Shown: positions 45,758 through 63,169 of the stretch, one piece after another
Numbering within the stretch: the first letter of the stretch is position 1
How the letters are laid out: every line of letters starts with the position of its first letter
From: Hexactinellida sp. DTS-2022
Lineage: Eukaryota; Porifera; Hexactinellida
DNA: 64,000 bases
Assembly: GCA_028753945.1 (NCBI GenBank)
Contig: JAPNXP010000018.1
Location: forward strand, 1,240,001-1,304,000
Direction of reading: 5' to 3'
Notes under the pieces: generated by a model
What the model was told of the DNA's origin: nothing
The model's database searches: none
Seen by the model: only the letters and a program-made list of their open reading frames with translations
Made by a program: the position numbers and the translations under genes

Positions 45758-46485
45758 TTCTAGCCCAGGGTTTTTAAAGGTTGAGACCTTGGTGTAACTC
45801 AGCGCTGCAGCGGCCGCGGCCACCCAAATCGTGGTGTAAATCCAAAAAATCTTGGTGCAAAATATACACCAAGTTCAGTGAAGTTAGCAGCGAAATCAGC
45901 AGCGAAATCCGAGCACACTTCTGTAGCTAATAAAATGGAAACTAAGACAAATATCAATTAGTCCTTCAATATTAATAGAGCCTACTTGTGGTACATTGGC
46001 CCATCAAATTTTCAAAACATTTTGAGATTGGGTCACCCCATGATGAGTTTGCAAAAAAGGTAATTTTTTACGAATTTTGGCATTTAAGTTCTATACTGAG
46101 CACACTTGTTAACGTTATACAATGCAAACCAAGTCACTTATATAGTTCTCCTTTGGCAGACTTTGAGACTAGTAGCGGTATATTAGCTCAGGAAATTTTC
46201 AAACTTATCCGAGATCTGCTTATGCCATGATGACTTTGCTGACACATGTCTGATTCCCTCTTCCAAACATACATTTTGTTTATTAATATTCTAATACTAC
46301 AGAAATGTTAATTCTAAAAGTTTATAATATACTTCTTTCTAAAACTAAACTGTGTTCTATTCTATTCTACTGTTGCTCCATTCTCTAATATAAAGTCTCG
46401 GTATGGTTTCGGATTCGCATTGTACTTCATCCTTTGAATTCACTTTGATAATAGGTTGGAAATGGTTCATAAATAGTCGAATATA

Positions 46486-47047
46486 CACTGACCGGCCAAC
46501 AGTATTTGAACAGCAATAATTTGTATTTATCACATTCAAGCTTCTAGCAGCATAATAGCATTGATGGATTAATCAACACTGCTATTTACATGATACAATA
46601 TTAAAAGTAGAATAAAATAGCAAATTTTTTGAATTTACATTTATATGGAGGTGTTAAACTCATTAACTACATAATTAGCTAATTAAATATATATTTTCTG
46701 ATCATCAAGATGTAATGAGAATATACAAGTTCTGATTGCAGATTTGAATTCCACATGGTCGAATTACTCTGGGTGCATAATTTCAAATCATTATGATCAT
46801 TTTCTACTGAAATACAGCCACATTCCCATTTGTGCCACCTGTGCCACAGGTGACACGTGGCAGATACACTTATGCCACTTGATGGATATTGACTAAAATG
46901 ACGTAAATAAAACTATTTTTAATTTATAACTATAGCAAGATATTTATTGTCATTTCAGAGTAGTTTAAACAGCCGTTACTAAGTTACCAGACGACTATTG
47001 TGTCTGCAATAAAATTCCAATTGTTCAATACTTTTGGCTGGTTAGTG
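46486..47047. mobile_element. Tc1-like non-autonomous element
   Basis: 562 bp flanked by TA with ends CACTGACCGGCCAACAGTAT and the inverted ATACTTTTGGCTGGTTAGTG, a terminus typical of Tc1/mariner elements. No transposase. Related partial copies at 36300-36550 (right half) and 60448-60680 (left half). Confidence 0.8.
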
Positions 47048-47096
47048 TATATTCTTTTTCCCGTCAATTTATGTGAATCGCGTTTATCTATGAATC

Positions 47097-47230
47097 CAGT
47101 GCCCGATTAACCATGAGGCACCTGAGGCACAGGCCTCAGGCCCCCAGCCTCTAGGGGCTCTATCGGGAGGTCTAAGGGGCCCCCAAATTGAGCTGTGCCT
47201 CAGGCCCCCATCTAGCTTAATCGGGCCCTG
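47097..47230. mobile_element. 134-bp hAT-type MITE in the OTU region
   Basis: Ends CAGTGCCCGATTAACC and the inverted GCTTAATCGGGCCCTG, with a perfect 8-bp duplication TATGAATC (47089-47096, 47231-47238). It interrupts the OTU reading frame after KFSGYGFI. Internal CCTGAGGCACAGGCCTCAGG palindrome. Confidence 0.9.
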
Positions 47231-48045
47231 TATGAATCCATAACCAGAAAATTTATTCCAGCAGTGATAAGCCTCTTGATAAACAAATATGTCTGTTTTT
47301 AATATTTGTGCGGCCAAAAACAGTCCATATCTGTACCCCACGATCCCATTCGATCAATCATACTTGCATTTATGTATTGTTCAATTGAATGGCAATGGAC
47401 TTCTAATAGTAAATCTATTTTACTGTGACAGTAACCACTGCATATTTCTCGGTAAGCACCTTTCATATTCTCTACTAACAGTTCCCTAACTTCTTTGTGA
47501 AAATGATCGCTATCAGTGATAAGAGAGTGAGCTAAAGAGACAGTTTCCATCAGGAGAAATTCTCTTTTCTTTAGAAGGCCTTAGCTCTCGGATTTCCAAA
47601 CTTCTGTCTTTTGATTCATTAGTATATAATATTCCACTGACATAAGATAGTTTCAAAGTCTTGCATTTCTCCCTTTGCCAAATTTGATCTACTGGACAAA
47701 ATTGACCATGATTATATAATCTAACACCTTGAGGATTATCATTTATCACAACACTGTCATCGCTTGATATTTCTGCACTAAAATCTGGTATAAGAGACTT
47801 GCTCATTCTATTTTTTGTTGCTATATTGTCCTTAAACATTTTTTTGCTATTAGGCTTGTTCTTAATTTTAGAATTTGGATGAGTTTTTTTACATTCAAAA
47901 GTCTGTTTATAGTTTCTCTTGTCACTGATAGTTTTAACACCTTCGGATTTGTGTAGAAAATTCAAGCTAATGTTTGGGGATACTTTTATCAAAATATGTA
48001 CTCTTTTTTTTCTTTCGCTTTTGCCAGATCTCTTCTACTAATGTA

Positions 48046-48219
48046 CAGTCGAAATCGGGGTTTTTTTGCCTTATCGGGTTATTTTGCCTCCTTGCTTCTC
48101 CTTGTTTCTTCATAACCTCATAGACCTGTATATTGTTAAATACGGGTTTTTTTGCGTATCGGGTTTTTTTGCCTCTTTTTCCATGCATTTAGGGGGGCAA
48201 AAAAACCCAGTTTCGACTG
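48046..48219. mobile_element. TA-flanked MITE in the MULE coding region
   Basis: Ends CAGTCGAAATCGGGGTTTTT and the inverted AAAACCCAGTTTCGACTG, flanked by TA. Inside are three ATCGGG-TTTTTTTGCC phrases. Lies between the transposase and OTU parts. Confidence 0.85.
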
Positions 48220-50769
48220 TAGTATCTTGAAATGTAGAAAAATCTTTGTTCTCTTAAAAACTTTGTCACTTATAGGCTCAAATCAAAATTTGAAAGCATT
48301 TATTCTCCCTTCTAGACCTCCTCGCAATTTTCTTAAGAAATCACCTGGTCTAAGTTTATTCTCGTTGTTAAGAATATTCGATTTAAGAATTCTCATCCAA
48401 TTTTCTACGATTGCATTACTATGCCTTACATTGATTTCACCTGGTGACATAACTGGACCTAAAATCAGACTACTCCAAATAGGACATATTGGCATATAAT
48501 GTATGACTAAAAATTCAGGTAACGCTGGTAGATAATAGTTCTTGTTTTCCTCAAAATATGTGGTCTTATATCTAATTTCTAATTCATTAATTCGTTCTTG
48601 ACATTTTCTTAGTAAAGTATCAAAATATCTACCAAATGGAGATCTATCTTTGTAACTTTTACCATCCCAAAGTCATTGGGAAGTTCTTCATCTATTTCAT
48701 CTAAATAATCAAATTCATTAGTAACTTCTTCCTCTCGAAATCTCAGTGCATTTTCAATTGTATTCACATGAAGGTTGATTTCTGGAAATTTTCTTCTCGA
48801 CAAACACAGCATACATAGAGCAATGAAAAGTTGTTCAAATTTTTCAAATTTTGTTGACGATACTAGCCTAGCCATTACAAACATAATGCATCTTTTGACA
48901 ACTTTACTAGTTCTCATATTACGTTCTAGTTTATAGCTGATGCGGTGCATCAAATGAGCTGAGCATATATGTAGTACGCTTCTATTTTTCTCAAATTTCT
49001 GTGGTGAATTGTGAATAAAATCCCAACAAGCATCAAGATAATCTTCAAGTTGTTCTTCATTAAAAATCCTGCAGATACTATGCAGCATTACCCAACTAAA
49101 ATCCACTTCGATGTGAGCGGGGCAGATTTCATGGTTCAATACCAACTTCACATCATAGCTCCATTTGTGTAAAAAGTGTGTAATTTCTACATTAGTATGG
49201 CTGCTGCTCAGCATCTCAGCAAGGGGTATAGGGCTTATTTTCATTATTGGGTGCTTTAATGTTAGAGCATAGTATAGAAATTTTTTTTGGTCTCTATATA
49301 TCTTTCTAACTACAGAACCTGTTGCATCCAAATGTAGAGATAATTTAGTCTTGTCAATTGACTTTAAGATAAGCAATTGTTCCTCACTATACATGTGTAT
49401 GACAATAGGATATCTTGATATCTTTTGTAGGTACCCATCAATAACTTTCCCTTTTATTGCACTGTCATATGTTTTCTTTGTAATAATAATATCCTCCCAC
49501 ATATCATCATCGAGCCGACGTTTTGAAAAATGTTGAGACTTAATTTTTCGTAGCACATGCGTTGAATGCAACTGGTTCATATTTCCGTGCTTGGCAGTTT
49601 CTAAAGCATCTGAGTTCTTGAAAAGGTCATAATGATAATTAATAGCTGAAATGCTTGACATATTTTCGCCTATTGATTCTCGCTGTTGCCCTGATATTTT
49701 TCGACTGTATGCAGTTCAATTATCAAAGTGTTCATTTGAAAGAACACCTTCTGCAAAAAAATTAACTGTCAAATAATCCAATTCAAATTGAGGCGCTTCA
49801 TCAATCCAAAGTGAAAATTTAACACATTCAGCAAATTTGCAAACTGCTTGAGCTACAATAAAACGACATTCGCGAAAACTCGAATTCACATTAATTCTGC
49901 GGTATATAAATTTGATTACACAATAGGGGAAAAAACGCTGAGCTTCTGGTTGAAAATATAGGTCCAATTTGAAAGTAATTTGTTGCATCCAATTTTTGGC
50001 TTAATAGATATCCATTCTTTAGGAGTGAGTATAAATCGGTTAGATTGTTGAGTTTCAGAATTGAAAGAAAATAAATTATCATCAGCTTCAATGATACCAG
50101 ATCCTTTTTCATTAATAACCGGTGATGGAAGACTATTTTGTGGACTTGTAGAGATCAGAATTGAGTCATTTGATTGTTGGATTGTCGAAAGAAAAATACT
50201 ACCCAAGTTTGATCGGCCAAAACTAACAATTAATTGAATTTTATCCTGATCTAAATCCATAGAATCGTACTTCGCATTTACTTTGTCCTGAATATTACAA
50301 TTGTTGTTATGCCAAAAATGCATTAGCTTTTTCCTCATAGTTGTTCGATTCCTATTAAATATTATTTTAGATAACATACCCCAAATTGAGAAAGAATCGC
50401 GCCAATTACAATAACTGAGTTTGGGTCGGATTTCAGACCATGGTAAATCCAATCTTGAGATTGCCTGCTCGAATTTCTCAGAAAAATCTCCGCCCATGAT
50501 CTCGGGCAAAGGGACGCAATTATAAATAAAACAACAAATATCACAGAAGCACTTTATTGATTACATAATTCTGGTCTTATAAATTATTCGAGATGCAACA
50601 CTCAAGATGCAAATTTGTGGAAAAATTATGAAGGGCCTAATCTAAATTAGGACAATCGAATAACTTGGTGTATGAATCAATAGAGTAAGATTTAACAAGT
50701 TATATCAATATACTTATTACAAGTTGAAACAATAAAATTATATTTAACACTTTCAATTGAACTGAAGTG

Positions 50770-51090
50770 TGAGTAAACAGAGAAATTTCAACCCCCATTT
50801 GTGGCATGAATTAAATCCATTGTGAAAATTTATCTTCTCCCATCAGACGCAGAATTTTATGGTGAATCCAATGGTGCAATAAAAATTTGGGGTTTAGTAA
50901 AACATTTTTTGAGTTATGGGCCAGACAAATTTTGAAAGGTATCAAAACTGTGTCCAAAATGTGTTACTCAAAAATCGTAACCCCAGGTGCAAATTAGACG
51001 GTCACTCCGCACCTACATGCCAAGTTTCAGCCCATAATGTATACAAGTATGGCCAGGGCACCTGTACGGAGAAATTAAAAAAAAGAAATA
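50770..51090 (-). repeat. inverted fragment of the hairpin-unit family
   Basis: Reverse complement of the first 310 or so bases of the units at 52.8-55.9 kb: TTTCAACCCCCATTT, CATCAGACGCAGAATTTTAT, CAAATTAGACGGTC, ATGCCAAGTTTCAGCCCAT, CTGTACGGAG. It sits inside the MULE just internal to its right inverted repeat. Confidence 0.75.
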
Positions 51091-51759
51091 ATAAAAATCA
51101 CATAAAGAAAGAATATCTAATTAAGGTTGTCAATATGAAACATGATGACCGCGTTTTTAAATGGAGCAACAGTAGAATAGAATAGAACACAGTTTGGTTT
51201 TAGAAAGAAGTATATTATAAACTTTTAGAATTAACATTTCTTTAGTACTAGAATATTAATAAACAAAATGTATGTTTGGAAGAGGGAATCAGACATGTGT
51301 CAGCAAAGTCATCATGGCATAAGCAGATCTCGGATAAGTTTGAAAATTTCCTGAGCTAATATACCGCTACTAGTCTCAAAGTCTGCCAAAGGAGAACTAT
51401 ATAAGTGACTTGGTTTGCATTGTATAACGTTAACAAGTGTGCTCAGTATAGAACTTAAATGCCAAAATTCGTAAAAAATTACCTTTTTTGCAAACTCATC
51501 ATGGGGTGACCCAATCTCAAAATGTTTTGAAAATTTGATGGGCCAATGTACCACAAGTAGGCTCTATTAATATTGAAGGACTAATTGATATTTGTCTTAT
51601 TTTCCATTTTATTAGCTACAGAAGTGTGCTCGGATTTCGCTGCTGATTTCGCTGCTAACTTCACACTCGTACCAAGTTCGGCCTTTAAAAAAAAACCTGT
51701 TCTAGCCAGCTTTCTATTGCATGTCCCTGTCACTGGAAAATTGGTCCCGGTGTAAGCGC

Positions 51760-62330: not shown

Positions 62331-63169
62331 ATATGATCTATTCGATATCATAATGTCATAATTTGTTTTGATTGAATCTGGCTCCAATAGCCCTTGAGAG
62401 CTTAGTACTAAGTAGTCTTAATTAAATGGTCTATGACCATAATATTTATTAATATTTATTCCTAAATTATATGACATGACACTACAGACTACAGCATGGC
62501 CTACTTAATATACGGCTAGATATGTCACCGAGGCCATAAAACGAGAAGGCCAGTTTCTAATTTTCATTTTAGGATAAACTATGCCTCCTATTGTTGTTAT
62601 TTGGGGTAATCAACCATTGCGAGTCCATTAGAATCACTTTTGAGAATCTCATATTTGTGGTTAAGCTATTTAGTGTAATAATGGAAATAATGACAATAAT
62701 GACAATATTCGTGAGGGAGTGAAATCTGACGCGGGCGGTGGAGCTGAAACAATATTCCAACAAACAGTGGCCTAATAGGTTTGTGGTGAGCATGAGACAC
62801 CGTAAATGTATCTCACACCCACCGGGATACGACATGTGGTGGAAGTGGTTTCGTCCTATCACAAGGACTCATCAGGAGGGTAACCCTCGACCACACTACA
62901 ACTGGTCTACACCAGTTCTAGTTACCAGTGAGCCATGCCGTTCTCCTACCACAGGTACTAAGCATAACCCACCTACACTAGGACCCCTCTAGTGCACTCC
63001 TGTCAGCCCGTCATCACAGGTTATCTGTACTTTACTATCCTATTACAACAATTGATATGACAATTCTTACTGAACCTTAAATTTCTTCCTATTTGTCTCT
63101 TATTAATACTCACAGATTATAATTTCTTTACTTAGTATTAGATTCAAATTATTCTGTAAATTGCCCATT
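62331..63169. other. PPIA 5' spacer
   Basis: The part 62740-62995 is less AT-rich and has an 84-codon frame (62738-62992) without recognisable domain. It could be an exon or a non-coding transcript, but nothing else supports it. Confidence 0.35.

Follow-up and report, generated by a model that had tools for sequence, protein, structure and literature searches.

Does the DNA transposon at positions 45877-51670 of the window (the whole 64,000-nucleotide stretch analysed, from contig JAPNXP010000018.1 of Hexactinellida sp. DTS-2022) encode a transposase of which an ovarian tumour (OTU)-type deubiquitinase is an integral part? The element is of the cut-and-paste type and has its coding pieces on the minus strand. 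A preliminary description had read it as a Mutator-like element (MULE) in which a transposase-like region is followed, on the same strand, by an OTU signature, an order that is borne out by the positions of the open reading frames (ORFs). The element is a dead copy of a family of MULE-like architecture whose transposase is composed of an N-terminal region, a DDE core, a linker and a C-terminal OTU domain, the latter probably removing ubiquitin in cis.

Relatives of the element were searched for in the genome (112.4 Mb in 18 contigs); all genome match counts are lower bounds, being limited to the best-scoring candidates, and some of the fetched loci (L numbers) are duplicate retrievals of one copy (e.g., L010/L027, L019/L033, L018/L042, L016/L049 and L017/L030/L052). 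The transposase and OTU pieces of the window copy have 113 and 101 matches, respectively. Twelve fetched loci were compared with the window copy, eight full and four partial. The eight full copies (L009-L013 and L015-L017) present the transposase and the main OTU stretch in collinear order, with 96.7-98.1% nucleotide identity to the window; the final OTU piece continues into the arm to form a joint stretch that is 88-99% identical in the same copies. The OTU gene region of one of them, L015, contains a separate insertion. Among the partial copies, L014 and L021 have arms and no transposase or OTU match (L021 also has parts of the nested transposon 1 described below), L022 has a transposase piece and an OTU stretch, and L024 has an OTU stretch and no transposase match.

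The suggested search for copies with an unbroken frame was successful: single frames of 1,077-1,349 amino acids, covering the N-terminal region, the core and the OTU domain in that order, are present in six fetched relatives. The 1096-aa frame of L019 lies between exact tips and an exact 9-bp target-site duplication (TSD), and the 1077-aa frame of L057 between two exact tips (C13:4675591 and 4681342). More generally, 68 of 101 core matches reach the C-terminal end of the core, and an OTU match follows downstream on the same strand in 59 of these, with a median gap of 304 bp; it is found upstream in none and on the other strand in one. The OTU places used for this count were 102 of 153 matches (those left out were mostly short fragments), plus 8 of 101 and 8 of 150 lying near cores, and the downstream count is somewhat favoured because these additional places were picked near cores (this list also supplied the two counts for upstream and opposite-strand positions). 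In at least 29 cases, core and OTU domain lie in phase within a single open frame, a lower bound since 42 of the 68 cores and 31 OTU places were examined; 22 of these frames, distributed on ten contigs, have at least 1,000 amino acids. The idea of a chance neighbour, which the preliminary description had named among the things that would overturn its proposal, is rejected in this genome on account of the retention of the protease region in 8 of 8 other full copies and of its position downstream of 59 of the 68 cores.

Core and OTU distances among eight proteins show a correlation of 0.90, a value reached by 80 of 40,320 permutations, and this co-divergence indicates that the OTU domain most likely predates the split of these subfamilies. 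In one subfamily, of which L060 is a member, protein-identical OTU stretches occur at nine places and identical cores at six, on several contigs (among the top-scoring rows). This sequence identity points to recent movement of that subfamily, with segmental duplication as the alternative.

The identity of the OTU domain itself, first proposed from motifs, was established through the relatives. Pfam analysis of the seven broken window ORFs detected neither OTU nor MULE matches, and PF02338 is above its cut-off in six of the seven long ORFs of relatives, including L010 (37.6 bits for a cut-off of 23.3); L059 is below it, with 19.8 bits. L010, a closely related copy on C3, aligns with two of the window pieces at 88 and 91%. 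The Asp, Cys and His of the OTU domain are shared by all 11 aligned rows (in these alignments, different ORFs of one copy may form separate rows, and L025 is the window copy), and the catalytic residues remain constant even though OTU identity between subfamilies is only about 28-40%. The fold is supported by a structure model, the nearest solved structures to which are OTU domains acting on ubiquitin or ISG15. The ratio of nonsynonymous to synonymous substitutions (dN/dS) is 0.15 for the OTU domain in one pair, corresponding to purifying selection; dN/dS is saturated for most divergent pairs, and values for all domains come only from L060/L059. No match was obtained with NCBIfam for four proteins, and none of the candidate relatives in viral contigs (22 pattern matches) and prokaryote genome contigs (47) was confirmed. 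The genome also harbours a second high-copy OTU group of 227-aa frames (more than 20 rows, e.g., C1:6523387-6523761, C2:4116119-4116493 and C11:6700479-6700853), which are too short to leave room for a transposase core.

In the window copy, the minus-strand open pieces that encode the N-terminal region, transposase core and OTU domain are mutually out of frame, and three small nested transposons, all absent from the eight other full copies, interrupt the element. The features are as follows.

45868..45876, no strand: left TSD ACCAAGTTC, identical to 51671-51679
45877..46382, plus strand: left terminal inverted repeat, 505-nt arm, with a tip 5 bases shorter than in relatives
46357..46572, minus strand: OTU piece with the catalytic His (IRLFMNHFQPI); ORF, same residues in L010
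46486..47047, no strand: nested small transposon 3, inside the OTU-coding region; inverted ends, TA flanks
47097..47230, no strand: nested small transposon 2; 8-bp TSD TATGAATC at 47089-47096 and 47231-47238
47231..47353, minus strand: OTU piece FLAAQILKTDIFVYQEAYHCWNKFSGYGFI, part of ORF 47084-47353; collinear in L010
47299..47580, minus strand: OTU piece with GSWGTDM; ORF, same residues in L010
47513..48034, minus strand: linker and OTU piece with the catalytic Asp and Cys (SPDGNCLF); ORF ending in SPDGNCLFSSLSYH, 101 genome matches
48046..48219, no strand: nested small transposon 1; inverted ends, TA flanks
48283..48672, minus strand: C-terminal part of the core with the Glu (SNAIVENWM); ORF, Glu invariant in 14 of 14 aligned cores
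48609..49715, minus strand: transposase core with both Asp (LHLDATGS, EVDFSW) and CxxH (CSAH); ORF containing LHLDATGSVV, LAEMLSSSH and EVDFSWVMLHS, 113 genome matches, invariant columns, modelled fold of L019
49716..50000, minus strand: cysteine-containing region before the core, a possible zinc finger; ORF, five aligned relatives all with CKFxxC and a His after it
49916..50560, minus strand: N-terminal part of the transposase; ORF, 26.5% identity to residues 20-246 of the 1096-aa L019 protein
51160..51670, minus strand: right terminal inverted repeat with the full tip ACGAGTGTGAAG; arm match, tip comparison
51671..51679, no strand: right TSD, identical to the left one

Because of the three insertions and the frame shifts, the window copy is dead. 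We take nested transposon 1 to be pogo-like, nested transposon 2 to be hAT-like and nested transposon 3 to be Tc1/mariner-like.

The boundaries of the window copy agree with the perfect 9-bp duplication and the inverted repeats of about 505 bp that had been proposed: the TSD is exact, and the arms (45878-46382 and 51160-51664) are identical at 501 of 505 positions. The left tip, AGTGAAG, is five bases short of the full repeat tip, and the arms of relatives start with ACGAGTGTGAAGTTAGC. The arms have 72 matches across the genome (including those of the window itself), and the 21-base tip occurs 63 times, compared with 0 for the reversed control. Tips and TSDs were scanned in the window and in 16 loci, of which L014, L021, L022 and L024 are without one or both tips and L023, with both tips 826 bp apart, was dropped from the TSD count by a 1-kb filter. 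Eleven fetched relatives have two exact tips separated by more than 1 kb; their 9-bp TSD is exact in eight, matches at eight of nine positions in two others and at three of nine in the last one. The matches of the arms across the genome and the TSDs of the relatives thus place the element structure beyond chance. In L013 (C1:7431301-7436634), the 8/9 match lies within two flanks that mirror each other as inverted repeats, and the element looks as though it had been placed at the centre of a palindrome. The two exact tips of L023 (C7:1290000-1297000, positions 1077-1902) possibly delimit a short non-autonomous relative.

In other copies, the arms contain tandem 187-188-bp units (one array of L012 has 7.3 copies, and L015 has 3.9 per side), so that the arm design is foldback-like in some copies. 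In L060, inverted arms of 313 nt (97% identity) extend to the edges of the fetched stretch, and the fetched stretches of L058, L059 and L061 showed no long inverted arms; the TSD and arm evidence therefore comes mainly from the window subfamily and from L018-L020.

The assignment of the element to MULEs is partly supported. The 9-bp TSD (8-11 bp in the class, mostly 9), the long inverted repeats (common and not universal in MULEs) and the D, D, C, H and E residues of a DDE triad with CxxH, invariant in 14 of 14 aligned cores, all correspond to MULE traits. Against this assignment, the MULE profile PF10551 matches none of the seven window pieces, seven long ORFs and 14 cores, and it does match all six MULEs fetched from the same genome. 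A profile-profile comparison with six MULEs gave 0.3-0.4%, with low sensitivity, since true MULEs compared with each other gave 5% (L062) and 99.8%. The full-length model has a mean predicted local distance difference test (pLDDT) score of 53.4 and is poor in the core; for this reason, the core of L019 was folded alone. An RNase H-like fold of the core is predicted by this model only. Among known structures, the modelled core ranks ISCth4 first, its identity with the ISCth4 and P element transposases being 6-9% over about 220 residues, and Foldseek with the core model gave no match at an E-value of 0.001 or better in PDB or among viral models. The modelled fold points weakly to the IS256-P-hAT group; ISCth4 is a member of the IS256 family, on the IS256/Mutator side. 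The genome contains at least 150 classical MULE domain matches outside the OTU-transposase family, and five of the six fetched MULEs also match FLYWCH at E-values up to 0.1.

There is appreciable room, short of an even chance, for the element being no relative of MULEs at all, belonging instead to a different DDE lineage close to P, hAT and Transib, or to an undescribed one. This would have to accommodate the first rank of ISCth4, the weakness of the profile control (the true MULE L062 reaches only 5%), and a 9-bp TSD with long inverted arms as in many MULEs (Table 1 of PMC6446971). Along similar lines, we tentatively consider a separate, recently active DDE lineage beside MULEs with an obligate C-terminal OTU deubiquitinase, selected since before the subfamily split, whose transposition would need local removal of ubiquitin.

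As for the function of the OTU domain, the most likely one is deubiquitination of the transposase or of proteins at the transposition complex. In the MULE-like scheme that we favour, the N-terminal region would bind the arms, and the DDE core would cut them and join them to the target with a 9-base stagger. The OTU domain, carried in cis, would strip ubiquitin from the transposase or from chromatin or repair proteins at the transposition complex, and this removal may prolong the life of the complex or the repair window. Self-processing and non-catalytic roles are both possible but less likely. Viral cysteine proteases often process polyproteins, and the fusion of the OTU domain in one frame with the transposase would suit a processing enzyme that releases transposase and protease from the long protein and that is no deubiquitinase. 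The linker between core and OTU is among the least conserved parts (amino acid identity of 0.24-0.29 in three pairs and 0.75 in L060/L059), and no constant cleavage site was seen in the alignment; together with the activity of the nearest solved structures on ubiquitin or ISG15, this makes such processing unlikely. Two points would fit a binding or scaffold domain that does no catalysis, namely the non-canonical residue that follows the catalytic His and the fact that no activity is known for this OTU domain. We regard such a role as quite improbable, given the invariance of Asp, Cys and His across such divergent subfamilies and the purifying selection in the single measurable pair. MULE-type transposons are known to capture fragments of host genes (PMC6431247), so that the OTU region might be a host gene piece adjoining, or captured by, single copies. 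Its presence in all eight other full copies and downstream of most cores, and its co-divergence with the core, make this explanation scarcely credible.

The element is not the first OTU-bearing transposon, since a cnidarian MULE and Ginger1 precede it. The former, MuDR-6_HM, is placed by Dupeyron et al. 2019 in MULE group 14 and is listed with 'Ovarian Tumour Gene' and one ORF (PMC6446971). It resembles the element as an animal MULE with OTU; compared by its table row only, it differs by a terminal inverted repeat given as 'None' and no TSD length. Ginger1 transposases carry a C-terminal OTU or Ulp1 domain, with OTU in Hydra, Aplysia and aphid (PMC2836005). They share with our element an OTU domain at the C-terminus of a DDE transposase, but have a Gypsy-integrase core, whereas no integrase Pfam match was found here in seven ORFs and 14 cores. 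OTU domains are also present in Helentrons (PMC6431247, PMC9741609), likewise animal transposons. These encode Rep and helicase, for which there is no Pfam match in the seven long ORFs, whereas the element has long inverted arms and a TSD. Phantom or Foldback-like animal MULEs (e.g., Tm1 of root-knot nematodes) have 9-bp TSDs and composite inverted repeats with tandem units (PMC3169594), reminiscent of the tandem-unit arms found here. Phantom transposases are described as having a FLYWCH finger and a MULE domain (PMC3169594), neither profile of which matches here, and Table 1 of PMC6446971 has no OTU entry for Phantom. The words OTU and ovarian are not used in the main text, as available, of a 2026 survey of arthropod MULEs (PMC13359780). 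No description of this element family was found among the literature matches listed, which came from a collection outside subscription journals and Repbase. Among plants, KI-MULEs carry Ulp1. We know of no OTU domain in ISCth4 or P element transposases.

Elsewhere in the window, two 292-aa ORFs for ISXO2/IS1595-type transposases (PF12762; 22303-23201 and 24894-25792) lie within an 899-nt inverted repeat of 99% identity, 1.7 kb apart. A Type III hammerhead ribozyme (62843-62896, minus strand) scores 58.3 bits, above the Rfam gathering score. Host-type genes near the element encode arginase, proline dehydrogenase, NAD synthase, a Ras-family GTPase and two cyclophilins, and across 2-kb blocks the G+C content varies between about 30% and 65%. 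In the genome as a whole, nuclear-receptor ligand-binding domains (four matches) point to an animal host. A search for Wnt gave no match, but the control genomes gave none either, so that this is no proof of absence; Wnt is missing from glass sponges (PMC10282587, PMC10280926), and a glass sponge would be no more than a guess from these data.

Domains that remove ubiquitin are found repeatedly in transposons of unrelated kinds, including Ginger1, Helentrons and one cnidarian MULE. According to a 2022 paper, the OTU domains of transposons had no tests of catalytic activity (PMC9741609). With core and OTU in one protein, 22 counted frames of at least 1,000 amino acids, identical copies and selection on the OTU domain, the question of the transposase-deubiquitinase becomes directly testable in this family, in which a natural protein and a single-residue control could be used for asking why transposases carry deubiquitinases.

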